A stretch of DNA of 64,000 nt from Levilactobacillus wangkuiensis (GTDB taxonomy: Bacteria > Bacillota > Bacilli > Lactobacillales > Lactobacillaceae): assembly GCF_016861605.1 (NCBI RefSeq), contig NZ_BOLM01000011.1, forward strand, positions 1 to 64,000, in the 5' to 3' direction. The notes beneath the pieces were generated by a model, which was not told the DNA's origin, searched no databases, and saw nothing but the letters and a program-made list of their open reading frames with translations. The stretch's first letter is position 1. Each line of letters begins with the position of its first letter. The position numbers and the translations under genes are program-made. Below, piece by piece: positions 5,062-56,043 of the stretch.

Positions 5062-5249
5062 GCCGCCTGCGGCCTCCAGGTACGCCACCAGCTGTGGGGC
5101 CCGCTTCCGGCCTGAGGAACGGTCCTCCAGCTCGCTTTTAAGCCGCGAAGCCCACGCGTCTCAAAAGTCGTCCCGTGCTGTAGGGCCGAGCAGCCCCCTC
5201 GGTCCAACACCACCGACACAGCAGGCTCTGTACCTGGCTGCCTCCGGCT
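5062..5249 (-). repeat. Cloverleaf repeat E1, subtype A
   Basis: The closing arms are GCCTGCGGCCTCCAGGTAC and GTACCTGGCTGCCTCCGGC. Inside, on the minus strand, are GACACAGC-type junction sequence, an H1 hairpin, H2 (CTTTTAAGC type) and H3 ending in CCCCACAGC. It is one of three elements packed between 5.06 and 5.88 kb. Confidence 0.7.
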
Positions 5250-5319
5250 CAAGTTGGGTGGTGCCCAGCGAATTTGTTTCGGTTCGTAAACGACTACGGT
5301 TGGCGCGTCCATTCTGGCA

Positions 5320-5518
5320 TTCGTTCCCGGCGGCGGGTTCAACCTGCCCTGCTGTGGGGTACGGTTCCAGCCTGCGAAACGGGCTTCCACCTCGCCTTGA
5401 AACCTCGCTAAGAATCGCGAGTTTCCAAGGTCGACCCATGGCCTAAGCTGAAGCAGCCCCTTCAGCTAATGCCATCGACGCAGCTGTTCAGGTTGACCCG
5501 CCTCTGGTCACTCAGACT
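5320..5518 (-). repeat. Cloverleaf repeat E2, subtype B
   Basis: Typical subtype B borders are present: CGTTCCCGGCGGCGGG on the left and CGCCTCTGGTCACTCAGAC on the right. The H3-H2-H1 order on the plus strand includes CCCTGCTGTGGGG, CTTCCACCTCG and CATCGACGCAGC. Confidence 0.7.
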
Positions 5519-5651
5519 GACCAACTCGTTTACTGTGCCGAGGCCAAGATTATTTTTCAGCTAAATATTAGCCTCAACGTAACTCACTCAACAGCCGTCC
5601 GCTGACTAACGTTGAACAACTCCCTACCCTGAAGAGAGGCACCAATTTATT

Positions 5652-5880
5652 TGCCCTTAAAACCAGTCCAAGCCGGGAGGGCGGGGCAAATAGGCTCAGC
5701 CGGGGGATTTATAATTAGCCAGCAAAGCTGACTAATTATAAATGGCGACTTTGAAACTCGTGATCTTCGAGGTTCAAAGCGAGGCTGAAGACCGCTCTTT
5801 GGCTTCAGCCGTCCTCCCCCCAGCGTTCCGGCCTATTTGCCCCGCCCGGTAAGGCGCCATCAACGACTAGTTTCAGGGCA
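5652..5880 (+). repeat. Cloverleaf repeat E3, subtype C
   Basis: The outer arms TGCCCTTAAAACCAGTC and GACTAGTTTCAGGGCA are partly complementary. The H1 arms ATTTATAATTAG (5707-5718) and CTAATTATAAAT (5732-5743) are perfectly complementary. H2 has TTTGAAACTCG and H3 has GGCTGAAGACCGCTC. It lies 3 bp downstream of the terminator of the ROK gene. Confidence 0.75.
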
Positions 5881-5882
5881 AA

Positions 5883-5913
5883 ATAAAAACTTCTGTCCGC
5901 GATGAACAGAAGC
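5883..5913 (-). terminator. Terminator of the ROK regulator gene
   Basis: The stem CTTCTGT/ACAGAAG is followed on the minus strand by TTTTTATTTT, 26 bases after the stop at 5939. Confidence 0.85.
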
Positions 5914-5938
5914 CCTTACGTATGCCGTTTCGTTTTCG

Positions 5939-7123
5939 TTATGCTTCGACTCCCTCTAAGACTGCCGACCGCTGATTGCTAAAGGTCAGTTGTAAGTCGT
6001 CCAAGGCCAGCGCCCGGTGAATGATGGCTGACGCGCCACCCATCAGTGAGGCTTCCTTGGAGTTCTTGGTTAACAGCAAAGGTGCTTTTCTTAAAATTTC
6101 TAACTTGCCCACGTAGTCACGTACCTGATCCATCAGTTCTGGCAACAGCTCCAAAATTGGGGCATTGACGATGATGGCGTCTGGAGCGAACGTGCTGGAC
6201 AGGTTACCCAGAACCTTGCTCAGGTAGTAGGCAAACTCGTCCAAAATGGACAACAGTTCTGGCCGGTGACCCAGGTAATCGCGCCGAATTCGGTTGACGT
6301 CGACCCGGTCAATGTTTTGGTAGGCCATGATCCGTTGTAAGACGTTGCCCTCCGCGACATAGTGGTTCACCGTTTCCATATTATCTTCTTTATACCGGTC
6401 AGCTAACGGACAGTTACCGATGTTGCCGGCCTCGCCGTTGTGCCCCCGATACAGGTGACCTTCCGTAATGATTCCGGCCGAAACTTGATCACGAATCGTG
6501 ACCGAAATCAGGTTTTGATAAACGCCCTCGCCGGAGAAGTCCCGTTCGTAAATTGCGGACTCGTTGGCCAAGTTTTCCAAGACCACCGGCACCTGGAATT
6601 TATCACTAAAGTATTTTGCCAAATCAAAGTTCTTAAAGCCCTTCAGTGAGGCGCCTAAAATCTGATTCTCATAAATCGTGCCATCCAAGCCAAACGCGAT
6701 ACCTAATAACCGGGTCTGGCTTGCCGCCATGATGTTGGCGATACGTTCGTCGATCATATCTAACACGGACGTCAGATCAACGTCTCTGGTCGACACGCTT
6801 TCGTAGTTCTCAGACCGCCCGTCCAATCTGCAAGTGATCATTGAGAAGCGAGAACGTAAAATGTTGATACTGATGACATAACCATACCCCACGTTTAGTA
6901 ATGCCATAACGGGCTTCCGCCCACCATTCCGGGTGCTTACGCCGTGACCAACCTCACGGATCAACCCTTCATGAAGTAACTGACTATAAATATCCGAGAC
7001 CGTAACTTTATTCAAACTAAGATTTCGTGATATCTGGCTCCGCGAAATCGGGCCAGCATTCACAATCTGCTGCAAAACCTGTTTCTCATTGGTGGTGCGC
7101 ATAATGTGTTTGTTGATAATCAT
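5939..7123 (-). CDS. ROK family transcriptional regulator (XylR/NagC type)
   Basis: The protein has 394 residues. Residues 1-75 form a winged helix-turn-helix (GPISRSQISRNLSLNKVTVS, then the wing GVSTRNGGRKP). The rest is the ROK actin-like fold, with a glucokinase-like LLGIAFGLDG near 140-150, ENLANESA near 200 and the GHLYRGHNGEAGNIG segment near 235. The Cys-rich zinc motif of sugar kinases of this family is absent, as is common in regulators. The family represses sugar-utilisation operons and releases DNA on binding the sugar. No sugar genes are adjacent, so the regulon is unknown. The start codon has only a weak AAGAAAA upstream, and a structured leader precedes it. Confidence 0.85.
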   Translation of the reverse strand: MIINKHIMRTTNEKQVLQQIVNAGPISRSQISRNLSLNKVTVSDIYSQLLHEGLIREVGHGVSTRNGGRKPVMALLNVGYGYVISINILRSRFSMITCRLDGRSENYESVSTRDVDLTSVLDMIDERIANIMAASQTRLLGIAFGLDGTIYENQILGASLKGFKNFDLAKYFSDKFQVPVVLENLANESAIYERDFSGEGVYQNLISVTIRDQVSAGIITEGHLYRGHNGEAGNIGNCPLADRYKEDNMETVNHYVAEGNVLQRIMAYQNIDRVDVNRIRRDYLGHRPELLSILDEFAYYLSKVLGNLSSTFAPDAIIVNAPILELLPELMDQVRDYVGKLEILRKAPLLLTKNSKEASLMGGASAIIHRALALDDLQLTFSNQRSAVLEGVEA

Positions 7124-7552: not shown

Positions 7553-7748
7553 ACTCCGCCTGCGGCCTCTGGGCATTGCGCCTGCTGTGGGGCACGGTTC
7601 CGGCCTGAGGAGCGGTCCTCCACCTCGCTTTGAAACCTCGCTAAGGCCCGCGAGTTTCCAAAGTCGTCCCGTGCTGTAAGGCTGGGAAAAGCCCACCCAG
7701 TCTAACACCACCGACACAGCCGTCTCCATGCCCAGCTGCCTCCGGCTC
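7553..7748 (-). repeat. Cloverleaf repeat E4, subtype A
   Basis: Nearly identical to E20: CGCCTGCGGCCTCTGGGCAT on the left, AACACCACCGACACAGCCG and GCCCAGCTGCCTCCGGC on the right, with the H2 arms GAAACCTCGC/GCGAGTTTCC in between. Confidence 0.75.
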
Positions 7749-7814
7749 CGTGGCAACGACCACCAAATTTCTTAATGGCCAATCACCACTTCTATATTTA
7801 TTGTAGTCTCTGTA

Positions 7815-8012
7815 TCGCCTCCGGGGCGGTGAAAATGAGACCGGAACGCGGTGGGCGCCCGTCTGGAGCCAAAGGACGGTCTCCAGACTTACTTTGAGCC
7901 GAAGACCACGTCTCAAAGATAGCAGTTCCCTAAGCGGCCCAACCCGCCACTAAGGGAACTCCCACGGCTAAGCTCATTTTCACCACCCCTGCGGCTGACA
8001 CTGGTTTAGCCC
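7815..8012 (-). repeat. Cloverleaf repeat E5, subtype C
   Basis: The border TCGCCTCCGGGGCGGTGAAAA pairs with TTTTCACCACCCCTGCGGC. H1 is AGTTCCCTAAGCGG with its complement CCACTAAGGGAACT. It is followed by ACACTGGTTTAGCCC, the common outer-arm motif. Confidence 0.8.
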
Positions 8013-8202: not shown

Positions 8203-8447
8203 CTTGGTGGTCGAACCCCACTGTCAGCCGTGAGGGCGGCGAAAATAAACTCAGCCGGGGGAATGGTCTTAGTGGCGTATGCGCCGCTTAGACCATTGGT
8301 GTCTTTGAGAACTAGTTCTCCCGTGTTTCACACTGCACGTCCGGAGACCGCCTCTTGGCTTCAGCCGTCCTACCCCCAGCGTTCCGGCCTATTTGCCCCG
8401 TCCGGTAAGGCGCTGGCAACGCACAATCTAGGTCCTCGACCACCAAG
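8203..8447 (+). repeat. Cloverleaf repeat E6, subtype C, in a 3' untranslated region
   Basis: The outer arms CTTGGTGGTCGA (8203-8214) and TCGACCACCAAG (8436-8447) are perfect complements. The H1 arms AATGGTCTTAGTGGC (8262-8276) and GCCGCTTAGACCATT (8283-8297) differ by one G-T pair. The right arm ends 2 bp before the stop codon of the gene at 8450, and that gene's terminator lies beyond the left arm. Confidence 0.8.
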
Positions 8448-8449
8448 AC

Positions 8450-9352
8450 CTACTTCAGATACTGTTCCGTGTACTTGGTGAGGGAGATACCCTTCTTGCT
8501 GGCCGTTTGTAAAGCGACCCGGACGTCTTGATCACTCATGGCGTCTGCCTGGCCACCGGCCGCGTTGATGGTCTTGCGGGCACTGGTGATTTGGCCGGCC
8601 GTGATGGTCTTGCCGTCCAGCTCCTTTTGCTTTTGCGTGACCGTGTATTCGTTGCTACCGGAATAATTGTTGGCCGCTGACTGTTCTGACGACGTCAATG
8701 ACGCGTTGGAACTGTTGGTGGCACCGGTGTTGCTACTGCTGGACGCCGTTGACGACGAGGAACTACTACTGCTGTCACTCGAGGCTGCCGACGTTTGCCC
8801 GGCATTGTTGGCCTTGCGCAGGGCTAAGGCTTGATCGTACAGGTTCTTGTAGTACTTCTGGCGGAACTTGGCGTTGTTGAAGAGCTCATCCAACGTGGTG
8901 TTCGATTGCCCGTAGTTCAACGCTTGGTTCTGGCCCGAAGCCGTCTCCAAAATCTGCTTAAATTGTTTAACGTTGGCGCGAATTCCCTTGACCAATTTGG
9001 CCTGGGTGGTTGCGCGCTTGACCAGCACCGTGGATGCGTTAGTCGTGTGCTTGACCTCGGCATAGTGGTCCGCTGCGCTAGCAAATTTCAAATCGTCCAG
9101 CGCATTTTCCGCTGACACGAAGCGTTGCGTTTGCGTTAAGTAGCGTTGGGCTGGCTTATCGTTCAGCCGCCGCTTTAAAGCGTTTTGGAAATAACTTTCC
9201 GCTTGCGTATAATGTTTATCTTGAATGGCAGTCCGACCGTTGGCCATTGCCGCTTGGTACTCCTTGGCTGTCGCGTGATGATTGGAATACGCGTACCCGC
9301 CAATCAGCAGTGCCACAACGATTGTTGCCACGACCCATACCCATTTTTTCAA
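8450..9352 (-). CDS. Membrane-anchored Ser-rich protein with TPR-like N-terminal region
   Basis: The 300-residue protein starts at a TTG preceded by GGAGG with 8-base spacing. Residues 5-24 form one membrane segment or uncleaved signal anchor. Residues 30-190 are alpha-helical with TPR-like pattern (GRTAIQDKHYTQAESYFQNA, then FASAADHYAEV). A poly-Ser linker follows at about 195-235, with a globular C-terminal region of about 70 residues. No catalytic motif is visible. It is probably an extracytoplasmic protein tethered to the membrane, perhaps a scaffold. The Ser/Thr linker is a candidate for glycosylation. It is monocistronic and I do not recognise a family. Confidence 0.6.
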   Translation of the reverse strand: MKKWVWVVATIVVALLIGGYAYSNHHATAKEYQAAMANGRTAIQDKHYTQAESYFQNALKRRLNDKPAQRYLTQTQRFVSAENALDDLKFASAADHYAEVKHTTNASTVLVKRATTQAKLVKGIRANVKQFKQILETASGQNQALNYGQSNTTLDELFNNAKFRQKYYKNLYDQALALRKANNAGQTSAASSDSSSSSSSSTASSSSNTGATNSSNASLTSSEQSAANNYSGSNEYTVTQKQKELDGKTITAGQITSARKTINAAGGQADAMSDQDVRVALQTASKKGISLTKYTEQYLK

Positions 9353-9501: not shown

Positions 9502-9567
9502 GACCAAGTGAATTTTATTTTCTTTGTGTCCAAATTCAAACCTAGAAAACCGGAAAGGACCCCTGTC

Positions 9568-10764
9568 ATGCTTGAAAAAACATTTTACAAAACGTTTCTG
9601 AGTCACACTTTCAACATCCCCGTTCGCGTTAACTATTGGGACGGGACTTCCGATGTCTATGGGACTGGCACTCCCGACATCACGATCACCTTCCACGAGG
9701 CCATTCCGGTCAAGGAAATCTCCCGCAACGCGTCCATCGCGCTGGGTGAAGCCATCATGGACGGCACCATCGAAATCGATGGGAGCATCGAAGACTTACT
9801 GACGGCCGCTTACGAAAATGCCGACAGTTTCTTCCACAATAAGAAGTTCATTCATTTCTTACCTAAACAAAAACACACGGAAAAGGAAAGTATCACCGAC
9901 GTTCAAAACCATTATGATATCGGTAATAATTTCTACAACTTATGGTTGGATGACACCATGACGTATTCCTGTGCCTACTTCAAAACGCCGGAGGATAGCC
10001 TCTACACGGCGCAAATGAACAAGGTCCACCACATCATCAAGAAGTTGAACCCGCAACCGGGCAAGACCCTCTTGGACATTGGTTGTGGCTGGGGTACCCT
10101 GATGTTGACGGCAGCCAAAGACTACGGTCTGCACGTTACCGGGATCACGTTGAGCCAAGAACAATTCGACTACGTGAACCAACAAATCAAGGACCAAGGC
10201 CTCGAAGACGTCGCCGAAGTTCGCCTGGAAGACTACCGGGAATTGGGCAACGAACAATGGGATTACATCACTTCCGTTGGGATGTTTGAACACGTTGGTC
10301 AAGAAAACTTGGGCCAATACTTCGACTGCGTTCAAAAGTACCTGATGAACGACGGTGTCGCCTTGATTCACGGGATTACCCGTCAACAAGGTGGGGCCAA
10401 CAATGGTTGGTTGAACAAATGGATCTTCCCAGGTGGCTACGTGCCCGGCTTGATTGAAAACACCACGCACATCATCGAAAGCGGCTTACAAATTGATGAT
10501 ATGGAACCCCTGCGCCGTCACTACCAAAAGACGGTGGAAATTTGGGATGATAACTTCAACGCCCACCGCGATGAAGTTGCCAAGATGTTTGACGAAAACT
10601 TCGTGCGCATGTGGGATCTTTACCTGCAGGCTTGCGCGGCTTCCTTCAAGTCTGGTAATATTGACGTGATTCAATATTTGATTTCGAAGGGCCCTTCTGC
10701 CCGGATGCTGCCAATGACGCGGGACTACATGTACGATGAGACCCACGACAAGGTCGCTAACTAA
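9568..10764 (+). CDS. cfa: Cyclopropane-fatty-acyl-phospholipid synthase
   Basis: The enzyme transfers a methylene group from S-adenosylmethionine to cis double bonds of membrane phospholipid acyl chains, a stationary-phase and acid-stress adaptation. The 398 residues include the family's N-terminal lipid-binding region, [20 protein letters not shown] (near 115-135), the SAM motif [11 protein letters not shown] (near 170-180) and the FEHVG segment. The ATG at 9568 follows GGAAAGGA with good spacing; the longer frame starting at 9508 would begin at the predicted transcription start. It is monocistronic with its own promoter and terminator. Confidence 0.95.
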
Positions 10765-10847: not shown

Positions 10848-10870
10848 GCGTTTAGCTTGGTGCCTGGCCA

Positions 10871-11063
10871 TCGCCTCCAGGCTGGTGAAAATGGCCTGGA
10901 ACGCTGGGGCGGACGTCCAGAGCCATGGAGCGGTCTCTGGACTTACTTTGAGCCTCACAGGACGAGTCTCAAAGCTACCAATTCAGTAAGCGGGCTGGCC
11001 CGCTTACTGAATTCCCACGGCTTAGGCCATTTTCACCAGCCTTGCGGCTAACACTCGTTGGGC
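10871..11063 (-). repeat. Cloverleaf repeat E7, subtype C
   Basis: TCGCCTCCAGGCTGGTGAAAA pairs with TTTTCACCAGCCTTGCGGC. The H1 arms AATTCAGTAAGCGGGC (10980-10995) and GCCCGCTTACTGAATT (10998-11013) are a perfect 16-bp match. It lies just beyond the cfa terminator, antisense to cfa. Confidence 0.8.
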
Positions 11064-13695: not shown

Positions 13696-13750
13696 AATTT
13701 CACCAGCACAACAGTTGGTAAAAACAGTTATAAGGGAGATTATACTTGTT

Positions 13751-15277
13751 ATGGATATGAAGAAGATTGTTATGGCCGCTACGTTAGTCTCAATCGTTAC
13801 TGGTGGAGAAGTTAGTGCGCTAGCCGCTAAGACCCAACAATCCGTTGCTAAGTTTACCCACGTCAAGGTCACGAAACACAAGGTCACTGGTTATACGACA
13901 GCAAAATCCCACATCGAACTGCTAAAGCTGAAACACGGAGAAAAGGCTTCGACAACTGCCAACAAGCATGGTAAGTTCACGCTTACGGTTAAGCACAATA
14001 ACCTCACGAAGTTAAACTTCAAGCTCAAGGCAACGAAAGTGGGCTTAAAGGCACGTACTTACACCCACAAAGCAACTAATAATATGGGATCAACGTCAAA
14101 TTCACATCCAAGCAAACCAATCGCACCTTCTGAAAGCTCAAACCTGCAGGAAAAGCCAAACAAGCCAAGTCTTCCAAGTCACCCAATCAAGCCTGGAAAA
14201 CCCGGTACTTCCGGAACGACCAACCCAGGCACCACTAATCCGGTCAAGCCTGGGAAACCTGGTAATCCGGGAACGACCAACCCAGGTACTACCAATCCAG
14301 TCAAGCCTGAGAAACCTGGTAATCCGGGAACGACCAACCCAGGCACTACCAATCCAGTCAAGCCTGAGAAACCTGGTAATCCGGGAACGACCAACCCAGG
14401 CACTACCAATCCAGTCAAGCCTGAGAAACCTGGTAATCCGGGAACGACCAACCCAGGCACTACCAATCCAGTCAAGCCTGGAAAACCTGGTAATCCGGGA
14501 ACGACCAACCCAGGCACTACCAATCCAGTCAAGCCTGAGAAACCTGGTAATCCGGGAACGACCAACCCAGGCACTACCAATCCAGTCAAGCCTGGAAAAC
14601 CTGGTAATCCGGGAACGACCAACCCAGGCACTACCAATCCAGTCAAGCCTGAGAAACCTGGTAATCCGGGAACGACCAACCCAGGCACTACCAATCCAGT
14701 CAAGCCTGAAAAACCTGGTAATCCGGGAACGACCAACCCAGGCACTACCAATCCAGTCAAGCCTGAGAAACCTAGCAAACCAGACCAGCCTAACACTGGA
14801 CAACCAGAACAGCCTGGCACGGGTACTGGGTCTAACGATGGCAACAATACAGGTGACGGCACCAATACCAGCAATAACACAAACTCTAATGGTAATGGCA
14901 CCAACACCGGCGATAGCACAAACTCTAACACTAATGGCACCATCACCAGCGATAACACAAACTCTAACGCTAACGGCACCGATACCGGTGACAGCACAAA
15001 CTCTAACACTAATGGTACCAACACCGGCGATAGCACAAGCTCTAACACTAATGGTACCAACACCGGCGATAACACAAATTCTAACGGCGGCAGCACCAAC
15101 ACTGGCGATAACACTGCCTCTAACGGTGATGACAACGTATCGACGACTACTGATGATAAAAAGCCTATCAATCCAGTCGTCCCTGCCGAACCTGCCCCAG
15201 CCCAACCCGATGAATCCAACCCTACTAATCCAGAAAAGAATCCTGACCACTCAGAAACAACAGGCCCAAACGCATAA
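13751..15277 (+). CDS. Secreted Ig-like-module protein with collagen-like Pro-rich and Asn/Thr repeats (paralog 3)
   Basis: A 508-residue precursor. I start it at the ATG at 13751 (MDMKKIVMAATL), which is identical in context to paralog 2; twelve upstream codons in frame look untranslated. Domain order: signal peptide, Ig-like module (about 30-115), nine perfect-length 19-residue repeats NPVKPEKPGNPGTTNPGTT with E/G alternation at one position, an Asn/Thr/Gly/Ser-rich region of about seven 13-residue units (GTNTGDSTNSNTN), and a Pro/Ala/Asp tail. There is no LPXTG, membrane segment or known wall-binding domain. Long extended repeats of this kind usually space a domain from the cell surface. 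The Asn/Thr/Ser units could be glycosylated. Long frames antisense to the repeats are by-products of the repeat composition. Confidence 0.7.
   Translation: MDMKKIVMAATLVSIVTGGEVSALAAKTQQSVAKFTHVKVTKHKVTGYTTAKSHIELLKLKHGEKASTTANKHGKFTLTVKHNNLTKLNFKLKATKVGLKARTYTHKATNNMGSTSNSHPSKPIAPSESSNLQEKPNKPSLPSHPIKPGKPGTSGTTNPGTTNPVKPGKPGNPGTTNPGTTNPVKPEKPGNPGTTNPGTTNPVKPEKPGNPGTTNPGTTNPVKPEKPGNPGTTNPGTTNPVKPGKPGNPGTTNPGTTNPVKPEKPGNPGTTNPGTTNPVKPGKPGNPGTTNPGTTNPVKPEKPGNPGTTNPGTTNPVKPEKPGNPGTTNPGTTNPVKPEKPSKPDQPNTGQPEQPGTGTGSNDGNNTGDGTNTSNNTNSNGNGTNTGDSTNSNTNGTITSDNTNSNANGTDTGDSTNSNTNGTNTGDSTSSNTNGTNTGDNTNSNGGSTNTGDNTASNGDDNVSTTTDDKKPINPVVPAEPAPAQPDESNPTNPEKNPDHSETTGPNA
14237..14749 (+). repeat. Nine tandem 57-bp coding repeats
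   Basis: Nine in-frame units of 57 bp encode 19 residues each; a tenth degenerate unit starts at 14750. Third-position differences are few, so the array is recently homogenised and prone to change copy number. Confidence 0.9.
14851..15120 (+). repeat. Degenerate 39-bp coding repeats
   Basis: About seven units of 39 bp encode GTNTGDSTNSNTN-like 13-residue blocks, more diverged than the 57-bp array. Confidence 0.75.
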
Positions 15278-22865: not shown

Positions 22866-23100
22866 TGTTCTAAACCTGTGTCAGTCCCAGGGCCGGTGAA
22901 AATGGACCGAGCGTGGTCAGTCTTAGTGACCAGAGGCGGATCAAGGTGCCCGGCTGTGTCGATGGCCTTGGCTGGGGTATTCTCCCAGCCTAGCCCATGG
23001 GACAACCTTTGAGACCGCTCCCCAGGCTCAAAGTTGAGGTGGAAGCCCGCTCCTCAGGCTGGAACCGACCCCACAGCAGGGCACCTTGAATCCGCCATCG
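22866..23100 (+). repeat. Cloverleaf repeat E9, subtype B behind a subtype C left arm
   Basis: It starts like E10 (GTTCTAAACCTGTGT, then GGGCCGGTGAAAATGGAC) but then switches to a complete subtype B body (GACCAGAGGCGG to CACCTTGAATCCGCC). No right-hand subtype C arm is present, so one end was lost. The H1 arms GGCCTTGGCTGGG and CCCAGCCTAGCCC are near-perfect. Confidence 0.75.
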
Positions 23101-23135
23101 AATGTACTGCAAAAGGATAACCTAACCTACACCAT

Positions 23136-23176
23136 TAAAAAATCCCCAACCAGAGTAACCACCCTGATTGAGGATT
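23136..23176 (-). terminator. Terminator of dacA, right copy of a duplication
   Basis: Same hairpin as at 22774-22816. It lies about 260 bp beyond the dacA stop with repeat E10 between them. Confidence 0.7.
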
Positions 23177-23222
23177 CTAACTTACACTTTTAAATGAAAC
23201 CACCCAAACGACAATCGTTGGT

Positions 23223-23446
23223 TTGTTCTAAACCAGTGTTAGCCGCAGGGCTGGTGAAAATGGACTCAGCCGTGGGAATTCTCTTAGCGGCTTTGCCGCT
23301 TAGAGAATTGGTATCTTTAAGACTCGCTTCTCAGAGGCTTAAAGTAAGCCTGGAGACCGCTCTTCGGCTCCAGGTGTCCGCCCACAGCGTCCCGGTCCAT
23401 TTTCACCAGTCCGGAGGCGCGGACAAGACACCAAGGTTTAGAACAA
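23223..23446 (+). repeat. Cloverleaf repeat E10, subtype C (clearest copy)
   Basis: The outer arms TTGTTCTAAACC (23223-23234) and GGTTTAGAACAA (23435-23446) are perfect complements, and the right arm contains the last codons and stop of dacA. The second stem is GCTGGTGAAAATGGAC with its complement near 23396-23411. H1 is AATTCTCTTAGCGGC/GCCGCTTAGAGAATT (23277-23309), H2 is CTTTAAG/CTTAAAG (23315-23344) and H3 is CCTGGAG/CTCCAGG (23349-23374). Together they form a four-way junction. Confidence 0.85.
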
Positions 23447-24760
23447 TGCGACGATGGCGCGCCACATGCGGACGAAGACGTTCGCCTTCTCCACCGCTCC
23501 AGTAACCTTAACCGGCACGCGAGTCGTCTTGGTATTCCCCAAGAAGCCCAGTTGATCGCCCTTCAAGGAAATGTTGGCGGTCCCAACGACCGTGTTCTTG
23601 GCAACGGGTGCTTCCAAGGCCTTGTTCTTAACCAGCTTGCTCTTCAGCGTCGTGGTGGATTGGACATTGCTAGCGACTTGGTCGTTGCGAATCCACAGCT
23701 TCAGGCCCTGGGTCAACACGGTCTTAGCCGTCTTTTCCTTGGCATCGTTGGTCTTGACCGTCTTACTGCCAGTCACCTGGCTACCGGCCTTGACGTTAAT
23801 CGTCTTGAAGTTGTTGTAAACGTAAGACATCATCTTCTGCGTTTGCTTGAAACGAGAAGGGTCGGTCTCGGACTTGTGGGCCGCGTGTAGCACGACGGTC
23901 ACGATCCGGTTACCGTCATTATTGGCGGTCCCGGTAAAGTTGGCGCCGGCCGCGTCGGAGGTCCCGGTCTTCAAGCCGTCCACGTGAAGTTTTGCGTATG
24001 AGGCGGACAGGCCCTTCAACATCCAGTTCCAGTTTTCCATCTTGGTGGCGTCGTTGGTGCCCTTTTCAAACCACATCTTCTTAACGCTGGTGGTCTGCAG
24101 GACTTCTGGATACTTGTTTAACAGCGCGACGGCCAATTTAGCTTGGTCGGCAGCGGACCATTCGTTTTCGGCGGAACCGGCCTCGTTGTCGTAGCCCAGC
24201 TTACCGACTTGCTTGTTCGTCAGCCCACAAGCGTTGTAAATTTTGACATTTGTCATGCCCAATTTCTTGGCTTGGGCCCGCATCTTAGCCACGAAGGCGT
24301 GTGGTGACCCGGCAACCGCCGTCCCCAGGGCTTCGATGGCCCCGTTGGCGGAGTAAATCAGGGACGCTTGGTACAGCGCCTTGACCGTGTACTTGTGACC
24401 CGCGCGTAGCGGCACGTTGGACAGGTTGGTGTTTTGTGCGACCTTGGCCGTAGCTTTATTAATCGTGATTTTTTGGTCCCACTTCAGCTGACCGTTGTGG
24501 ACCGCGTCGAGCACCAAATAGATGGACAACAGCTTGGTCATCGAGGCGACTGGCAAGGCTTGATCACTATTTTTATCATAGAGAATCTGTCCAGTCTTGG
24601 CATCGACGGCAATCCCGGCCTTGGCCTTCAGGTTGACCGTGGTGCTGGTACTGGTCGTGGCCGCCTGGGCCGTGACCGGCGCGCTAAGGGTACTGAGGCT
24701 TCCGGCAAACAGCGTCATTGCCGTTACCAAGCCCATAACAACTCGTTTTAAACGTTTCAT
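23438..24760 (-). CDS. dacA: D-alanyl-D-alanine carboxypeptidase, PBP5 family
   Basis: The enzyme trims the terminal D-Ala from peptidoglycan pentapeptides outside the membrane. The 440-residue precursor has a signal peptide ending near VTAQAA. The penicillin-binding motifs are ASMTKL (SxxK, about residue 72), YSAN (SxN, about 137) and DGLKTGTSD (KTG, about 258). The C-terminal part (from about 310) is the PBP5_C beta domain, and the last residues FVRMWRAIVAL form an amphipathic membrane anchor. The ATG at 24760 has GAGGAG 9 bases upstream. It follows the histidine kinase gene by 49 bp, so it is probably controlled by that two-component system. Confidence 0.93.
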   Translation of the reverse strand: MKRLKRVVMGLVTAMTLFAGSLSTLSAPVTAQAATTSTSTTVNLKAKAGIAVDAKTGQILYDKNSDQALPVASMTKLLSIYLVLDAVHNGQLKWDQKITINKATAKVAQNTNLSNVPLRAGHKYTVKALYQASLIYSANGAIEALGTAVAGSPHAFVAKMRAQAKKLGMTNVKIYNACGLTNKQVGKLGYDNEAGSAENEWSAADQAKLAVALLNKYPEVLQTTSVKKMWFEKGTNDATKMENWNWMLKGLSASYAKLHVDGLKTGTSDAAGANFTGTANNDGNRIVTVVLHAAHKSETDPSRFKQTQKMMSYVYNNFKTINVKAGSQVTGSKTVKTNDAKEKTAKTVLTQGLKLWIRNDQVASNVQSTTTLKSKLVKNKALEAPVAKNTVVGTANISLKGDQLGFLGNTKTTRVPVKVTGAVEKANVFVRMWRAIVALF

Positions 24761-24809
24761 CAATGAAAACTCCTCTATCTTATGTAGTTACCGGAAAAGT
24801 CCGGCAGCT

Positions 24810-26106: not shown

Positions 26107-26299
26107 GGCCGCCTGCGGCTTCCAGGTACTACGCCTGCTGTGGGGCCGGTTCCCGCCTGTGGTGCGGGCTCCCACCTCGACTTTAAGCCCTGCGAAGTTC
26201 ACGCAGGTCTCAAAGGTCGTCCCGTGCTGTAAGGCCGAGAAAAATCGCTCGGTCTAACACCACCGACACAGCCGTCTCCGTACCTGGCTTCCTCCGGCT
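26107..26299 (-). repeat. Cloverleaf repeat E11, subtype A
   Basis: GCCTGCGGCTTCCAGGTAC pairs with GTACCTGGCTTCCTCCGGC. It carries GTCGTCCCGTGCTGTAAGG and AACACCACCGACACAGCCG. It sits between the response regulator and the kinase genes. Confidence 0.75.
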
Positions 26300-26518
26300 C
26301 AGATGGTGTGCTCACGTGAAACTAGTTGCGGGCGGGTCCACCCATTGGCTTGGTGGACGGGTAACCGCAGCCGAGCGACACCACTGGAATGGCCACGTGG
26401 AAAGAAACCCACGCCAACCATACAGAGTGAAACCGCCAGCGAATGATGCCAGCAACGGCAACCACACAAACCCAAGTAGCTACCAGCTTGACTCACATGG
26501 CTTTCGCTGCCATTAAAA
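26300..26518. other. Spacer between repeats E11 and E12
   Basis: 219 bp without a gene. GGTCCACC/GGTGGAC (about 26335-26358) can form a hairpin and CACGTGAAAC at 26312 resembles one half of a parS site. I recognise nothing else. Confidence 0.35.
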
Positions 26519-26707
26519 ACCAGTATATGCCGAGAGGGCGGGAAAAATGGACTCAGCCGTGGGATTTATCACGCGCGTGCGCGTGATAAATGGTGACTTT
26601 GAGACTCGTTTCTCAGAGGCTCAAAGCAAGTCCCGAGACCGCTTCTCAGGCTCGGGGCGTCCTCCCCACAGCGTTCCGGTCCATTTTTTCCGCCCGGTAA
26701 GGCACTA
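26519..26707 (+). repeat. Cloverleaf repeat E12, subtype C
   Basis: GAGGGCGGGAAAAATGGAC pairs with GGTCCATTTTTTCCGCCC. The H1 arms ATTTATCACGCGC (26564-26576) and GCGCGTGATAAAT (26579-26591) are perfect. It begins 38 bp beyond the response regulator stop. Confidence 0.8.
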
Positions 26708-26744
26708 GCACCAACTACATTATCTTTAACACAACAACCAAAGA

Positions 26745-27434: not shown

Positions 27435-27650
27435 AATTGGGCTAATCTCCTTTAACAGCTAGGTAATAACACTAGCGGTCTTCCCCGTAGGTTTACGTCT
27501 ATTCTAGCAAATAAACCGCGTGACGTGACCGGAAAACCCGAACCTTTAGTCGGGCGTAAGGCACTTTACCATTCCTTAATCTTACACTATTTGCGGGCGA
27601 CTCGCCAACCCGGCGTTAAGCTCCGATTAAGTCCTAATCTTTGTGTTTGT

Positions 27651-27880
27651 CAGCGCCTCCGGGATGGTGAAAATGAGAGCGGCAAGTCGCCGGCGTTCCC
27701 GACGGCGGATTCAAGATGCCCTGCTGTGGGGAACGGCGCCAGCCTGAGGAGCGGTCTGGCGCCTCGCCTTTGAGCCCAAATTCGGTCTCAAAGGTCGTCC
27801 CGTGCTCTAAGCTGAGAAAAACGCTCAGCTAAGACCACCGACACAGCTGGTCACCTTGATCCGCCTCTGGTCACTCAGAC
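27651..27880 (-). repeat. Cloverleaf repeat E13, subtype B behind a subtype C left arm
   Basis: CAGCGCCTCCGGGATGGTGAAAA is followed by a subtype B body from GCCGGCGTTCCCGACGGCGG to CGCCTCTGGTCACTCAGAC. The right C arm is missing, as in E9. Confidence 0.7.
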
Positions 27881-27933
27881 TTGCTGCGCATTTTCTACCT
27901 ACCCCGTCCGCTTCCACCACACATTGCTCGTAC

Positions 27934-28415: not shown

Positions 28416-28485
28416 CACGACCACCGTCCCCGACACGACCAAATCACATCAGCGCGTATCTACCAATCGGGCGCTAACCCGTTGG

Positions 28486-28668
28486 AACCGGAGGCTGACA
28501 GTCTCGAAAGCCTGTGTCGGTGGTGTTAGTCGGCGTTTTTCAGCCGGCTTACAGCACGGGACGACCTTTGAGATGCCGGTTTTTGGCGGCTTAAAGGCGA
28601 GTGTGGAGACCGCTTCCCAGGCTCCACACGTTCCCCACAGGCTGGAAGAGACTGTCAGCCGCAGGTGG
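28486..28668 (+). repeat. Cloverleaf repeat E14, subtype A
   Basis: The GGAGGCTGACAGTCTCG and GACTGTCAGCCGCAGG borders pair. It contains GCCTGTGTCGGTGGTGTTAG, CAGCACGGGACGACCTTTG and TTCCCCACAGGC. It lies between guaB and its terminator, antisense to guaB. Confidence 0.75.
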
Positions 28669-35073: not shown

Positions 35074-35197
35074 CCTAACAAATATATTCATAAATTGAAT
35101 ATTTCTAGTTACTTCAAGTAAGCAAATATTTCAAAGAAAGTGTGAATCGGTGAACCACTTACCACCGCCCACCAAACCAATGAAAGTAAGAGCGCAA

Positions 35198-35385
35198 TCT
35201 GAGTGACCAGAGGCGGGCCAAGGTTCCCAGCTGTGTCGATGGTCTTAGCTGAGCGATTTTTCTCAGCTTAGAGCATGGGGCAACCTTTGAGACCGCTTCT
35301 CAGACTCAAAGTTGAGGTGAAAGCCCGCCTCTCAGGCTGAAACCGACCCCACAGCAGGGAACCTTGAGCCCGCCGCCGGGAACGG
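35198..35385 (+). repeat. Cloverleaf repeat E15, subtype B
   Basis: CTGAGTGACCAGAGGCGGGCC begins it and CCTTGAGCCCGCCGCCGGG ends it. The H1 arms CTTAGCTGAG/CTCAGCTTAG pair; H2 is CCTTTGAGACCGC..CTCAAAG and H3 is GAAAGCC..GGCTGAAAC. It is antisense to the GT-C gene whose 3' region it occupies. Confidence 0.8.
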
Positions 35386-35528
35386 AAAGATTTAGCCAAC
35401 CTTACTTTCCAAAACGTGTTCCCCAAGGCAGCTGGTTCCGCTTAACCCCACTAAGCAAACGACCCAGGTTCGGGGTCATTCACTTAGTGACGTTAATGCT
35501 CGCCAGCTAACCGCCTTGACTCACACTC

Positions 35529-38147: not shown

Positions 38148-38370
38148 CCAGGGTTGCATAACCGACTCGCCTCCGGGATGGTGAAAATGGGTCGGAACGC
38201 TGTGGGCGCACGTCCGGAGCCTAAGAGCGGTCTCCGAACTTACTTTGAGCCGCCAGGACCGCGTCTCAAAGATAGCACTTCCCTAAGCGGCCAAGAACGC
38301 CACTAAGGGAAGTCCCACGGCTGAACCCATTTTCACCATCCCTGCGGCTAACACTATTTTGGCCCTCTGG
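38148..38370 (-). repeat. Cloverleaf repeat E16, subtype C
   Basis: TCGCCTCCGGGATGGTGAAAA pairs with TTTTCACCATCCCTGCGGC. The H1 arms ACTTCCCTAAGCGGC and GCCACTAAGGGAAGT pair. The outer sequence is CCAGGG/CCCTCTGG. Confidence 0.8.
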
Positions 38371-38467
38371 TCGGTTTCCCTTGGCACATGACGTGTCACT
38401 CAGTTAGACACGCATACGCTTTCTAGGATCTGATCGATAGCCACCGTAAAAGTAGGTCCAATTGCAA

Positions 38468-38572
38468 GAGTGATCAGAAACGATTCAATGTGGCCAGCTG
38501 TGTCGATGGCCTAAGCTGAATGATTTTTTCAGCTTAGGCCACGGGACGAGCCTTGAGACCGACGCAGAACAA
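38468..38572 (+). repeat. Truncated cloverleaf repeat E17, subtype B
   Basis: Only the left border, H1 (GGCCTAAGCTGAA..TTCAGCTTAGGCC) and the start of H2 (CCTTGAGACCG) remain. It is cut off exactly at the T-tract side of the terminator at 38570. Confidence 0.65.
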
Positions 38573-38697: not shown

Positions 38698-38940
38698 CTC
38701 ACCAACCACCCCCCACCACAAAATTCGCGGCGGGTTCGGGCCAAACCAATGTTGCCAGAGAACCACAACATCAGCGACCGGAGGCGGCCGGGGCTCAGCC
38801 GGGGGATTTACGGTGCGCAGCAGCGTAAATGGTGACTTTGAGACGCGTTTCTCAGCGTCTCAAAGCAAGTCCGGAGACCGCTCTCTTTGGCTCCGGGCGT
38901 CCTCTCCCAGCGTTCCAGCCCCAGGGAGCGACCAGCTGTC
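38698..38940 (+). repeat. Cloverleaf repeat E18, subtype C, first of a tandem pair
   Basis: It has a shortened closing stem (GGGGCTCAGCCGGGGG / CTCCCAGCGTTCCAGCCCC). H1 is ATTTACG..CGTAAAT, H2 is CTTTGAGACGCG..CTCAAAG and H3 is CCGGAG..CTCCGG. It is duplicated with its flank as E19, offset 268 bp. Confidence 0.75.
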
Positions 38941-38969
38941 GTGCACCTAAGCACTCAGCCAGTTTTCAC

Positions 38970-39214
38970 CCAACCATCACCCACCACCAGACTCGTGGCG
39001 GGTTCGGGCCAAACCAATGTTGCCAGCGAACCGCAACATCAGCGACCGGAGGCGGCCGGGGCTCAGCTGGGGGATTTACGGTGCGCAGCAGCGTAAATGG
39101 TGACTTTGAGACGCGCTTCTCAGCGGCTCAAAGCAAGTCCGGAGACCGCTCTTCGGCTCCGGGCGTCCTCCCCCCAGCGTTCCAGCCCCAGGACCGCCGC
39201 AGGGAGCGACCAGC
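38970..39214 (+). repeat. Cloverleaf repeat E19, subtype C, second of a tandem pair
   Basis: Near-identical to E18, including the GGGTTCGGGCCAAACCAATG flank. Both copies lie between the DUF1129 stop codon and the terminator at 38570, antisense to the gene. Confidence 0.75.
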
Positions 39215-44796: not shown

Positions 44797-44999
44797 GGTC
44801 GCCTGCGGCCTCCAGGGATTCCGCCTGCTGTGGGGAACGGTTCCGGCCTGAGGAGCGGTCCTCCACCTCGCTTTGAAACCTCGCTGAGGCCCGCGAGTTT
44901 CCAAAGTCGTCCCGTGCTGTAAGGCCGGCAGCCCACCGGTCTAACACCACCGACACAGCCGTCTCCATCCCTGGCTGCCTCCGGCTAAGCTTGATCACC
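44797..44999 (-). repeat. Cloverleaf repeat E20, subtype A
   Basis: GTCGCCTGCGGCCTCCAGGGAT pairs with ATCCCTGGCTGCCTCCGGC. The body is almost identical to E4 (CCGGCCTGAGGAGCGGTCC, AAAGTCGTCCCGTGCTGTAA). Confidence 0.8.
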
Positions 45000-45220: not shown

Positions 45221-45513
45221 CGGGCTAAACCAGTGTTAGCCGCAGGGCTGGGAAAACTGGGCCGGCCGTGGGAGTGACCAGAGGCGCGCCAAGGTGCCCG
45301 GCTGTGTCGATGGCCTTGGCTGGAGTTCTTTTCCAGCCTAGCCCATGGAACAACCTTTGAGACCGTCCTTTGGCTCAAAGTTGAGGTGGAAGCCCGCTTC
45401 TCAGGCTGGAACCGGCCCCACAGCAGGGCACCTTGAGCGCGCCGCCGGGAACGGACGCGACCAGGCCCAGTTTTCACCAGCCCGGAGGCGAGTACAACGA
45501 CTCGTTTAGAACG
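45221..45513 (+). repeat. Cloverleaf repeat E21, subtype B nested inside complete subtype C arms
   Basis: The outer arms CACGGGCTAAAC and GTTTAGAACGTG pair with an internal mismatch. Next are GCCGCAGGGCTGGGAAAACTGGG and CCCAGTTTTCACCAGCCCGGAGGC. Inside is a full subtype B body from GACCAGAGGCGCGCC to GCGCGCCGCCGGGAACGG. It demonstrates that subtype B replaces the inner part of subtype C. Confidence 0.8.
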
Positions 45514-46449: not shown

Positions 46450-46617
46450 ACCCCCGTGGCCCCCATCAAATAAGTCGCCATTACCGGGGCACCACCCGGC
46501 AACAGTCCCCGACTATTACTAAGTTAGGTCCAGCATACCGAAGCGATGTAAAGATTTGATGTTATCCCCGTCAACATCTTGTAAAATTTTTGCCAACGGT
46601 GAGCAAAGTCTCCGCAA

Positions 46618-46652
46618 TAAAAAACCCATCACGCCACTCTCGCTGTGATGGA
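46618..46652 (-). terminator. Terminator of the small hydrophobic peptide gene
   Basis: The stem CCATCAC/GTGATGG is followed on the minus strand by GTTTTTTATTG, 18 bp after the peptide stop. Confidence 0.75.
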
Positions 46653-46669
46653 TTTTAATTTTACTTTTC

Positions 46670-46759
46670 TCACGGCCGTTTCGGCTTCTTCACGAAGAAT
46701 AATATTGGTAACCAAGTGACGACCAGCAGCACGAGCGTGTCAAAATTCATGGCAGACAT
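46670..46759 (-). CDS. 29-residue hydrophobic peptide, putative type I toxin
   Basis: AAGAGG with 8-base spacing precedes ATG 46759. The peptide has one membrane segment (residues about 8-23, TLVLLVVTWLPILFFV) and a basic tail KKPKRP. Size, topology and its own terminator fit the Fst/Ldr/holin-like small toxins of type I systems. An antisense RNA antitoxin was not identified. It is too small to recognise by similarity; it could also be a regulatory small membrane protein. Confidence 0.5.
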   Translation of the reverse strand: MSAMNFDTLVLLVVTWLPILFFVKKPKRP

Positions 46760-46854
46760 GTGATCATCCTCTTTCCCCTGATTTTCCTTTAGTCTACCAA
46801 GCTCGTGTAACGATTTCGTATGGATTACCCACCCATTCGTGTAAAGTTTTTCAA

Positions 46855-46886
46855 ACAAAAAAGCCTGGGATTGCTCCCAAGCTTCT
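46855..46886 (-). terminator. Terminator of the nucleoside hydrolase gene
   Basis: The stem AAGCCTGGGA/TCCCAAGCTT is followed on the minus strand by TTTTGTTTG. Confidence 0.85.
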
Positions 46887-46916
46887 TTGCGTGCTGCATC
46901 TAATTTTTCGGTTGAA

Positions 46917-52884: not shown

Positions 52885-53174
52885 GGTTACGTTGGTGTTA
52901 TGGCATCGCCTCCGGGATGGTGAAAATGGGCCTGGTCGCGTTCGTTCCCGACGACGAGCTCAAGGAGCCCTGCTGTGGGGTCGGTTCTAGCCAAAGGACG
53001 GGCTTCCACCTCAACTTTGAGCCTGAGAAGCGGTCTCAAAGGTTGTCCCATGTTCTAAGCTGAGAAAAATCGCTCAGCTAAGAACATCGACACAGCCGGG
53101 CACCTTGGCTCGTCTCTGGTCACTACCACGACTGGCCCATTTTCACCATCCCTGCGGCTAACACTGGCGTAACC
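52885..53174 (-). repeat. Cloverleaf repeat E22, subtype B nested in complete subtype C arms
   Basis: The outer arms GGTTACGTTGGTGTT and AACACTGGCGTAACC pair, then CGCCTCCGGGATGGTGAAAATG and CATTTTCACCATCCCTGCGG. Inside is subtype B (GTTCCCGACGACGAGC to CGTCTCTGGTCACTACC). It is the mirror orientation of E21. Confidence 0.85.
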
Positions 53175-53335: not shown

Positions 53336-53584
53336 AACGGTATTTTTTCTCCCTTGTTGCCAGAGCGGAGGCCACCAGGTGCGGAAAGCCTGTGTCGGTG
53401 GCGTTAGACCGAGTGTTCTTCTCGGCCTTACACCACGGGACGCGTTTGGAAACTCGCGCTTCTCAGCGAGGTTTCGAACCGAGCTGGAGGACCGCCTCTC
53501 AGGCCGGAAGCGTTCCCCACAGGCAGGGAGCACCTGGTGGCCGCAGCGGTACCCCCACAAATCTGAGCGCAAAAAAATACCGTT
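53336..53584 (+). repeat. Cloverleaf repeat E23, subtype A
   Basis: The outer arms AACGGTATTTTTT (53336-53348) and AAAAAAATACCGTT (53571-53584) match and include the T-tract of the terminator at the right. The body has GGAGGCCACCAGGTGC/GCACCTGGTGGCCGC, GCCTGTGTCGGTGGCG and TTCCCCACAGGC. Confidence 0.75.
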
Positions 53585-54485: not shown

Positions 54486-54568
54486 ATGAATACCCCTTTT
54501 CGTTTTTGTCTACGGTTATACTGTAATACTCATAGTTACATTTAGCAAGTCAAAGGGTTCAGGGTAAA

Positions 54569-54604
54569 TAAAAAAGCCCCACAGTCCAACGACTGCGAAG
54601 CTTA
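54569..54604 (-). terminator. Terminator of the gene at 54609
   Basis: AAGC..CAGTC/GACTG..AGCTT is followed on the minus strand by TTTTTTATTTACC. Confidence 0.75.
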
Positions 54605-54608
54605 AAAA

Positions 54609-54875
54609 TTAAATCAACATTAACGTAACGCCTTCGACTGGCGTCAAACTGTCGCCGAGATCGCCAAAGACTAATTCTTTTTTGAAGACGGGTTGACTCA
54701 ATTCGGTTAGGTTAGTTTTTTGAATGGTCAGATGATAACGGCCATGCCGATCACGCTTTAATTCATAGTTCACGAATTCTTGTTCAGGGGCGTAGTCAGC
54801 GAAACGGACGGCATAAGTGCCGAGTTGGTGCGAAACGACCAACCGAATTCCGTTTTCATCTCTAAAGATATGCAA
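54609..54875 (-). CDS. Conserved hypothetical protein, 88 aa
   Basis: The start is placed at the TTG at 54875 because AGGAG lies 10 bases upstream and the sequence LHIFRDENGIRLVVSHQLGT begins a compact beta-rich fold. The longest frame (to 54944) would add residues reading through promoter-like sequence. There is no membrane segment or motif I recognise. Confidence 0.5.
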   Translation of the reverse strand: MHIFRDENGIRLVVSHQLGTYAVRFADYAPEQEFVNYELKRDRHGRYHLTIQKTNLTELSQPVFKKELVFGDLGDSLTPVEGVTLMLI

Positions 54876-55168
54876 AATTTGTTCACTCCTATATTGATTA
54901 GATGCCGCACGATGTGGAAAAGAAAAAGGAAAAGCCGCCACCACGGCTCCTCCTCGATATCGTCATTCGCTCAATCAAAGATTTTTAGAACCGCCGCGAC
55001 TATTTCGACAATCACGGCTAAAAAACCAATGATTAACCTCCATGCGCACAGTGATGTTAGCCTGGCCAAACCACGTCCAGTTTGGTATCACCAGATAATT
55101 CCTCTATGTACCTTGATTGTACCATACTTGCCTGTAAAAGATTAGCTTCCCCGGAAATTGTCTTCTCC

Positions 55169-55477
55169 TTGGGCTAAACTTGTGTTGTTGGTCGCCTCCG
55201 GGCCGGTGAAAATAGGTCGGGACGCTGTGGTAACCTGTCGTTCCCGCCGGCGGGTTCAAAACGCCCTGCTATGGGGTCGGTTCCAGCCAAAGAACGGGCT
55301 TCCACCTCGACTTTGAGCCTGAGGACCGGTCTCAAAGGTCGTCCCGTGGGCTAGACTGGGAAAGGACCCCAGTCAAGGCCACCGACACAGCTGGGCATTT
55401 TGACCCGCCTCTGGTCGCTGACACTAGCCAAGAACCCTATTTTTACCGGTCTTGCGGCTAACACAAGTTTAGCCCAA
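55169..55477 (-). repeat. Cloverleaf repeat E24, subtype B nested in subtype C arms
   Basis: The outer arms TTGGGCTAAACTTGTGTT (55169-55186) and AACACAAGTTTAGCCCAA (55460-55477) are a perfect 18-bp inverted repeat. Then GCCTCCGGGCCGGTGAAAATAG faces CTATTTTTACCGGTCTTGCGGC, around a subtype B body. Confidence 0.85.
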
Positions 55478-55833
55478 ATGAAGGCATTGTCCTGGTCGCT
55501 TAGCCTTCACCTATCATTCCGTGGTCCAATGCCATTCAGTCAATCTGGTAGCCTGTTCAATCATCTCTTGTACTTCTCACTCCTCTGATGCCAAGTAATT
55601 ATCAATTTTTCCTATTAAGATCCTAATAATTAACAAAAACACCAGTCAATTCACCCCAGCCCCTTGCCAGCCATGGGTTAGAAATGTTTCAATAATTAAT
55701 AATAGCTGGTTTAGGGCAACTGACTACAATTATTAATCAGTCACTTAATACTAAACCAGTTCAAAATATCCAACTTCAATCAATACCCAACAAATAAACA
55801 CCAATTCAGCACAACGATGACTACGCAGCTCGT
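55478..55833. other. AT-rich intergenic stretch with a long hairpin
   Basis: CTGGTTTAG..CTGACT pairs with AGTCA..CTAAACCAG (about 55708-55768). There is no T-tract and no gene. Its arm sequence is the inverse of the common repeat outer arm, which may be coincidence. Confidence 0.4.
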
Positions 55834-56043
55834 CACAGTTGGTTAGCGGGTTAAACGTGTGTCAGCCGCAGGGTCGGTGAAAATGAGCTCAGCCGTGGGA
55901 GTCATCTTTGAGACTCGCACTTAGAGGCTCAAAGTAAGCCTGGAGACCGCCCTTTGGCTCCAGGCGGCGCCCACAGCGTCACGGCTCATTTTCACCGACC
56001 CGGAGGCGAAGGAACAACACAAGTTTAACCCCAACCAACTGTG
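55834..56043 (+). repeat. Cloverleaf repeat E25, subtype C lacking H1
   Basis: Very long outer arms: CACAGTTGGTTAGCGGGTTAA faces TTAACCCCAACCAACTGTG, then GCAGGGTCGGTGAAAATGAG and CTCATTTTCACCGACCCGG. H2 and H3 are present, but GCCGTGGGAG runs directly into H2, so H1 is deleted. It ends 30 bp before the ATG at 56073. Confidence 0.8.

Follow-up and report, generated by a model that had tools for sequence, protein, structure and literature searches.

The 64,000-nucleotide (nt) stretch of Levilactobacillus wangkuiensis analysed here (assembly GCF_016861605.1, contig NZ_BOLM01000011.1, positions 1 to 64,000; the window) carries 24 intergenic copies of an element that folds as a cloverleaf and follows an orientation rule that is independent of gene strand and symmetric about the intergenic centre: neighbouring copies in one intergenic region never converge, and a single copy nearly always has its 3' (right) end nearer a gene. 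On balance, and with considerable reservation, we take the family to be a non-autonomous structured mobile element with a fixed polarity of insertion at intergenic edges. This reading draws on the structure of the copies and its covariation, on presence and absence of copies at corresponding sites, on the boundaries of the unit and its orientation, on its abutment on stop codons and terminators, and on the inverted copies of host sequence beside a minority of copies. The orientation rule, the genome-wide abundance and the spread over ten genera go beyond an earlier description made from the letters of the window (the sequence-only reading).

Abundance and orientation of the copies

Searching with nhmmer and seeds from the subtypes A, B and C gave 24 clusters in the window (Table 1), in agreement with the roughly 24 intergenic copies and three subtypes proposed in the sequence-only reading: 10 are of type C, 8 of type B and 6 of type A, 13 lie on the + and 11 on the - strand, their length is 116-292 nt, together they take up 7.8% of the window, and the midpoint of all 24 lies outside predicted genes (as given by a simple hexamer caller made for the analysis). 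The same seeds gave no match in 492 kb of reversed sequence. Motifs that had been pointed out before were indeed enriched, with 8 matches vs 1.3 expected for CTTTGAGACCG and 20 vs 2.9 for GGAGACCGCT (one mismatch allowed), and 14 exact matches vs 2.1 for CCCACAGC. The family had also been called dense; the copies are real, but their density in the window exceeds that elsewhere in the genome by only a modest margin, and they form no special cluster (0.38 copies per kb, 24 in 64 kb, vs 0.25 and 0.30 in two 200-kb stretches of the same genome, C2:1-200000 and C3:1-200000, with 50 and 59 copies, respectively). A 464-kb genome sample held 133 copies, of which 132 could be placed in intergenic regions, and extrapolation to the 3.14-Mb genome gives about 900 copies, which corresponds to roughly 5-8% of the genome and to hundreds of enlarged intergenic regions. 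Bit-score cut-offs preceded some of the counts below (50 for gene distances and orientation in the L. wangkuiensis genome, 40 for orientation in the related genomes G015 and G017, and 90-150 for anatomy, G-U, promoter, terminator, inverted-copy, copy-similarity and left-arm counts), and the copies of these three genomes are partly orthologous and therefore not independent counts.

Among the neighbouring copies less than 700 nt apart (124 pairs in seven genomes, collected without gene calls) 79 were -+, 29 ++, 16 -- and none was +-. All 86 copy-bearing intergenic regions of the L. wangkuiensis genome had any - copies to the left of any + copies, and their 46 neighbouring pairs were 26 -+, 15 ++, 5 -- and 0 +-; none of 20,000 random orientations was as free of +-. 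The same was found in G015 (-+ 16, ++ 3, -- 3, +- 0), in G017 (-+ 20, ++ 13, -- 4, +- 0) and, outside the genus, in four genomes of which three had neighbouring copies (-+ 14, -- 4, +- 0). In regions with a single copy, the 3' end was nearer a gene in 117/133 cases, whichever the direction of that gene (44/46 in L. wangkuiensis, 20/23 in G015, 33/37 in G017 and 20/27 outside the genus); seven of the 16 exceptions were outside the genus and four in G017. For instance, in divergent regions of the L. wangkuiensis genome the copy had the strand of the nearest gene in 16/18 cases, and in convergent regions it had the opposite strand in 15/16. The complete lack of convergent neighbours is a quantitative constraint on any mechanism.

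Fold and covariation

The fold consists of a closing stem (P1) and three hairpins (H1, H2 and H3). Full copies have an outermost stem with a different sequence in each copy, inside it an internal loop (GCCGCAGGG/CCCGGAGGC) and inside that a further stem, usually GGTGAAAATGG/CCATTTTCACC; the closing stem carries GCCGTGGG or GCTGTG/CCCACAGC, and both H2 and H3 have a bulged A in GAGAC. Type B copies with outer arms have the arms of type C around a different core, type A has arms of its own sequence, and relatives in other genera follow the same plan with other stem sequences. Type C units measure ~215 nt, and those of type B with outer arms reach ~290 nt. The nearly uniform layout described before stands as far as the fold is concerned, but the copies at 38446, 38791 and 39059 are short and full copies have the extra outer stem.

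In the alignment of C cores (all 15 that met the search pattern) 42 pairs were formed in 98.2% of the cells and 22 pairs showed double changes, and in that of B cores (30 of the 69 available) the corresponding numbers were 38 pairs, 99.0% and 16 pairs. The observed covariation was matched by 0/500 shuffles for C and 0/500 for B, and it collapsed in slid controls. The four-way layout of the sequence-only reading is thereby borne out, with significant covariation in both types of core. In alignments across L. wangkuiensis, G015 and G017 (35 A, 123 B and 92 C copies), two or more Watson-Crick types, each represented by at least two copies, were found at 26/60 pairs in A, 37/64 in B and 40/67 in C.

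Orthologous copies, however, differ by blocks of paired changes. The H1 arms of the copy at 5657..5874 differ in this way from those in G015 and G017 (ATAATTA/TAATTAT vs GCTCTAG/CTAGAGC in G017, as read from the alignment), the outer arm of the copy at 26514 is block-wise different from both genomes, and at 27642, 28479 and 53366 the type switches at the same place between genomes. Conversion between copies or copying across a hairpin explains such blocks no less well than stepwise selection does, so the covariation may stem from these processes besides selection on an RNA, a warning that applies to covariation in repeats of this kind.

Sites with and without copies

Region 26028-26744, flanked by a histidine-kinase gene (24810-26027) and a response-regulator gene (26745-27434), is 717 nt long and contains two copies (707 nt in G015 and in G017, 667 nt in G006). 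Its counterpart is 28-34 nt long and without copies in G030, G012, G013, G023 and G005, it measures 49 nt in G029 and, again copy-free, 311 nt in G010, and no length could be measured in G034. In five congeners 28-34 nt separate the genes of this two-component operon, which the two copies split here; transcription therefore has to cross both copies or start anew between them. Conversely, at the region matching 46450-46916 a C/A pair is present in G006 alone and no copy in L. wangkuiensis, G015, G030, G005 and G034. It is from orthologous sites of this kind, which lack copies, that we infer insertion.

Five dispersed copies in G017 (94-96% identical in the six pairs listed) share a stretch from about CGGGCTAAACC to about GGAGGCGCTGACAAC within unrelated flanks, indicating that the thing that multiplies is one cloverleaf unit of ~215 nt. 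Both lines of evidence, i.e. the presence or absence of copies at orthologous regions and the close similarity of dispersed copies in unrelated flanks, support the mobile element that the sequence-only reading had put forward as a possibility. Non-orthologous pairs with more than 93% identity numbered 2 (B) and 10 (C) within species, and 0 (B) and 1 (C) across species.

Stop codons, terminators and inverted host sequence

The outermost 3' ends in the L. wangkuiensis genome are at a median distance of 19 nt from a stop codon (n=51) or 93 nt from a start codon (n=53). We scanned for terminators around the 125 gene-adjacent stop-facing copies of L. wangkuiensis, G015 and G017 (12 inner copies set aside). 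For 98/125 a terminator between stop and copy was undetected (median 14.5 nt from the stop), while 27/125 lay behind an intrinsic terminator (median 88 nt from the stop). A terminator was located 52-225 nt past the 5' end in 50/125 and none was detected for 48/125, which says little, as the same scan was positive for 185/361 copy-free control genes; 0/125 had a terminator on both sides. In outgroups without copies the terminator is close behind the stop codon (by eye), and many stop-abutting copies therefore appear to have been inserted between stop and terminator. The native stop position was unchanged at both sites checked (22444 and 26028).

Another finding was that the left flank of some copies resembles the inverted end of the gene on the other side. 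When the left flanks of 83 stop-adjacent copies were compared with the final 27 coding bases before the stop, the score exceeded the 95th percentile of mismatched pairs in 20/83 (~4 expected), the 99th in 13/83 (0.8 expected) and the 99.9th in 6/83 (0.1 expected); the 14 cases shown include orthologues (the 8220 copy is counted twice and the 26514 copy thrice). A wider comparison, of the outer flanks of 89 copies, agrees, with a signal that fades ~40 nt beyond the internal loop. The coding ends were the template, since their counterparts exist in relatives without copies. The long outer stem of the 55849 copy has a sequence found just in that copy and its G015 counterpart.

Proposed mechanism and alternatives

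According to the mobile-element reading, the unit would be one strand, folded into a long stem that is capped by a cloverleaf of three hairpins, with the single strand as the putative mobile form. It would insert where genic DNA borders on intergenic DNA, its 3' end being joined to the genic side whichever the gene direction. Such polarity could come from joining one end at the single-strand/double-strand edge of melted intergenic DNA; since the edge on the left when one strand of a melted zone is read would be on the right when the other is, the rule would be symmetric about the intergenic centre. Two insertions in a region would end up tail to tail (-+), and later ones would queue behind. 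Copying across the hairpin, during insertion or later, would write inverted flanking host DNA beyond the left arm, perhaps by fold-back synthesis from the junction, so that the outermost stem would be unique to each copy. The more specific proposal, that a cloverleaf without a protein senses the genic/intergenic border physically and with no motif, its 3' end genic and its outer stem an inverted host copy that includes the stop, we put forward as a doubtful one. The orientation rule makes it possible to test such gene-end sensing by an element that has neither a protein nor an evident target motif.

Several observations weigh against mobility of this kind. At the two near-identical G017 copies that were checked (two of two), L. 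wangkuiensis and G015 have a copy at the same place and match G017 through the copy and the neighbouring gene, with a 4-fold-site identity of only 87-88%; these copies are thus not fresh, and their similarity may come from conversion or constraint. Several differences between L. wangkuiensis and G015 resemble deletions, no clear target duplication was seen at the few comparable sites, and no mobility protein could be linked to the family. Among the 83 stop-adjacent copies, 63 had no inverted-copy signal above the 95th percentile. The difference in A+T content between the two sides of the copies was modest, so the idea of a melted edge gains little from it.

A functional structured RNA, acting in the sense orientation in 5' untranslated regions (UTRs) and, from the other strand, as large hairpins behind stop codons that protect mRNA ends or have a regulatory role, and kept by selection, is a possibility we regard as rather improbable. 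Strong covariation, the maintenance of the fold across ten genera and the many copies between stop and terminator or shortly 5' of start codons speak for it, as do dispersed copies that predate the species split and are still 94-96% identical. Conservation can be read both ways. Identity at element positions was 0.776 in the comparison with G006, above that at 4-fold sites (0.644) and in the remainder of the intergenic regions concerned (0.464), but with G015 and G017 (0.860 and 0.896) it was not above the 4-fold sites (0.872 and 0.876) and was lower than in copy-free intergenic regions (0.974 and 0.969; 0.939 for G006). The other bases of the same regions gave 0.901 and 0.880 with G015 and G017, and the values for G030 were 0.480 (mostly another copy), 0.607, 0.616 and 0.753 for elements, 4-fold sites, other bases and copy-free regions, respectively. 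The G006 comparison is thus the only one that suggests constraint on the elements. Similarly, G-U departures in well-paired columns outnumber A-C departures 184:100, + strand folding being modestly preferred, but the bias is alike for start-facing (97:49) and stop-facing copies (87:51), although gene transcripts hold opposite strands of the two, so it is seen regardless of the strand in the transcript. Selection on UTR structure explains the positions but not this common folding strand, nor does it sit well with the 27/125 stop-facing copies behind a terminator, with promoter scores 5' of the copies (131 stop-facing, 115 start-facing) that are no higher than those of shuffled sequence, or with the failure to detect copies in the congeners G004 and G012. 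The structured RNA of the sequence-only reading consequently keeps its covarying stems, whereas a G-U excess of only ~2:1, equal in both positions, and the lack of an upstream promoter signal do not favour it.

DNA architecture, in which the outward cloverleafs extrude as cruciforms at intergenic borders and bind a nucleoid or topology protein, would fit a rule that is symmetric about the intergenic centre and ignores gene direction, that is also obeyed by the three genomes with neighbouring copies outside the genus, and that concerns stems with near-perfect Watson-Crick pairing. We nevertheless consider it unlikely, given that in the L. wangkuiensis genome most intergenic regions shorter than 400 nt do without a copy (9/116 of those of 100-400 nt have one) and 53/86 of the copy-bearing regions have one copy alone, that the family was not detected in two congeners, and that there is no protein candidate. 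Mobilisation by a RAYT (tyrosine HUH) transposase, as for a REP/REPIN-type repeat, would agree with palindromic intergenic repeats in frequent inverted pairs and with strand-specific folding. It is very improbable here: PF01797 (IS200-type transposase) has 0 matches at E 1e-5 in the L. wangkuiensis genome, and the repeated unit, of ~215-290 nt with three hairpins, is a single copy and no pair.

Other candidates were rejected. The -+ pair as one transposon with two ends does not agree with the single-copy unit and with the near-random type combinations of 61 divergent pairs, in which the largest departure was A with full B (7 vs 3.0 expected); whole pairs in one lineage only are compatible with two insertions. 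An own promoter in the 5' flank and a pure UTR-RNA were set aside on the promoter scores and on the location-specific G-U test, respectively, the latter showing no start/stop difference. A 5' tail brought along from a donor was considered for the 55182 copy, of which the tail beyond its own arm matches nothing substantial elsewhere in the genome. As for a partner enzyme, neither PF01797 (in 23/35 genus genomes) nor the reverse-transcriptase domain PF00078 (in 10/35, with two genes in the L. wangkuiensis genome) has a distribution that tracks the family. One of these two PF00078 domains is encoded just right of the window (G000:C11:69116-69691). Finally, no protein-bearing version was recognised among 157 left-arm matches sampled in about 1.2 Mb, of which 135 had a right arm at 150-400 nt, nine at 400-1000 nt, one at more than 1000 nt and one at less than 150 nt, and 11 were unpaired.

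Copies and other features of the window

Table 1. Cloverleaf copies in the window, with position, strand and context
Feature	Position	Strand	Remarks
copy, type A	5065..5259	-	start of gene 3861-4973 lies 92 nt from the 3' end, which faces it; present in G017, absent from G015
copy, type B	5316..5524	-	profile search
copy, type C	5657..5874	+	terminator-like hairpin of gene 5939-7123 between stop and copy (by eye)
copy, type A	7558..7750	-	G015 retains just a fragment
copy, type C	7800..8010	-	profile search
copy, type C	8220..8421	+	3' coding end of gene 8450-9352 found inverted and decayed in left flank
copy, type C	10852..11063	-	directly behind terminator-like hairpin of gene 9508-10764 (by eye)
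copy, type B, right outer arm lost	22867..23109	+	tandem with copy 23226..23437
copy, type C	23226..23437	+	outer stem extends into stop and last codons of gene 23438-24763
copy, type A	26111..26309	-	between response-regulator and histidine-kinase genes
copy, type C	26514..26722	+	left flank vs inverted coding end of gene 26745-27434: 16/19 nt
copy, type B	27642..27909	-	G015 has type C at the same place
copy, type A, divergent	28479..28666	+	type C in G015 and G017
copy, type B	35195..35409	+	profile search
copy, type C	38151..38363	-	profile search
truncated copy, type B	38446..38561	+	profile search
short copy, type C	38791..38921	+	first half of 268-bp tandem duplication
short copy, type C	39059..39187	+	second half of 268-bp tandem duplication
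copy, type A	44801..44995	-	profile search
copy, type B, full outer arms	45225..45498	+	profile search
copy, type B, full outer arms	52897..53172	-	profile search
copy, type A	53366..53547	+	type B in G015
copy, type B	55182..55473	-	copy and 5' tail (about 425 nt) absent from G015
copy, type C	55849..56027	+	46 nt upstream of gene 56073-56675

The right-truncated B copy followed by a C copy in tandem (22867-23437) represents a pattern (+Bs +C) that was found in seven intergenic regions; similar B-C arrays occur in L. wangkuiensis, G015 and G017, with paired matches at further loci, as if the tandem B-C composite spreads as a unit too. The tandem duplication at 38702-39152 (268-bp period, 183 nt at 94% identity) contains a type C copy that has one counterpart in G015 and in G017 and two in G006. 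We also noted three sets of open reading frames (ORFs) without a Pfam match: ORF 13715-15277, which consists mostly of 57-bp and 39-bp tandem repeats and perhaps encodes a repetitive surface protein; ORF 34112-34927, with 30-bp tandem repeats; and the paralogous ORFs 31719-33422 and 35529-37163, 3.8 kb apart and with segments that are 71-78% identical.

Distribution and relation to known repeat families

With the cloverleaf model R1 we found relatives in 92/397 Lactobacillaceae genomes and 10/40 genera (in the numbering of the tool), the E-values outside the genus reaching ~1e-22; the filters of this search across the family were stricter and may have let weak relatives escape, and ten congeners were missing from its results. 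A blast search with a C copy was positive in 26/35 genus genomes; G009, G033 and G034 were negative by blast and positive with R1, and G004 and G012 were negative by both. The exact 28-nt outer-arm pattern was present in contigs of L. mulengensis, L. lanxiensis, L. cerevisiae and one metagenome-assembled genome. Five type C copies of G030 (loci L074 and L075) are on average 87% identical mutually and 66% identical to the copies of the L. wangkuiensis genome, which suggests a separate amplified subfamily. One C copy compared with 72,556 plasmids and one B copy compared with 50,697 phages gave no match, and one exact pattern was absent from viral contigs.

Neither the window nor 80 kb taken from three other genera had an Rfam match at the gathering score, in line with the lack of a known counterpart suspected before, and a relaxed threshold on 701 bases gave only matches at chance level. 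Among the matches listed for the full-text open-licence part of PubMed Central we found no description of such an element or orientation rule, and the family is apparently undescribed so far. In the portion of PMC2267715 that includes its genome table, L. johnsonii is the sole Lactobacillus.

The family resembles several known systems in part. Miniature inverted-repeat transposable elements (MITEs) are likewise short, non-coding and dispersed with inverted ends, and definite ends in unrelated flanks were found here as well, but the cloverleaf ends taper into host-derived inverted copies with no clear target duplication at the few comparable sites, and a transposase-bearing relative with matching ends was not found among the sampled left-arm matches. 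REP/REPIN elements, with a unit of 20-40 nt moved by a RAYT (Y1/tyrosine HUH) transposase, share the many intergenic palindromic copies, the common inverted pairs and the lack of a protein of their own. The cloverleaf family is far larger (116-292 nt vs 20-40 nt), has three hairpins and repeats a single cloverleaf unit in strict outward orientation, in a genome with no Y1 transposase. BOX, RUP, ERIC and EFAR-type repeats, some of which PMC2267715 names, are also intergenic, foldable and non-coding; we know of no comparable orientation rule among them. With attC sites and the ends of IS200-IS605 elements the family shares features of a folded single strand that is recognised with a strand preference, but it has no cassettes and no fixed insertion motif was seen. 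Like ROOL, GOLLD and other large RNAs, it is a large structured element of Lactobacillales; it differs from them in being negative with Rfam and in consisting of hundreds of short cloverleaf copies vs one long RNA.

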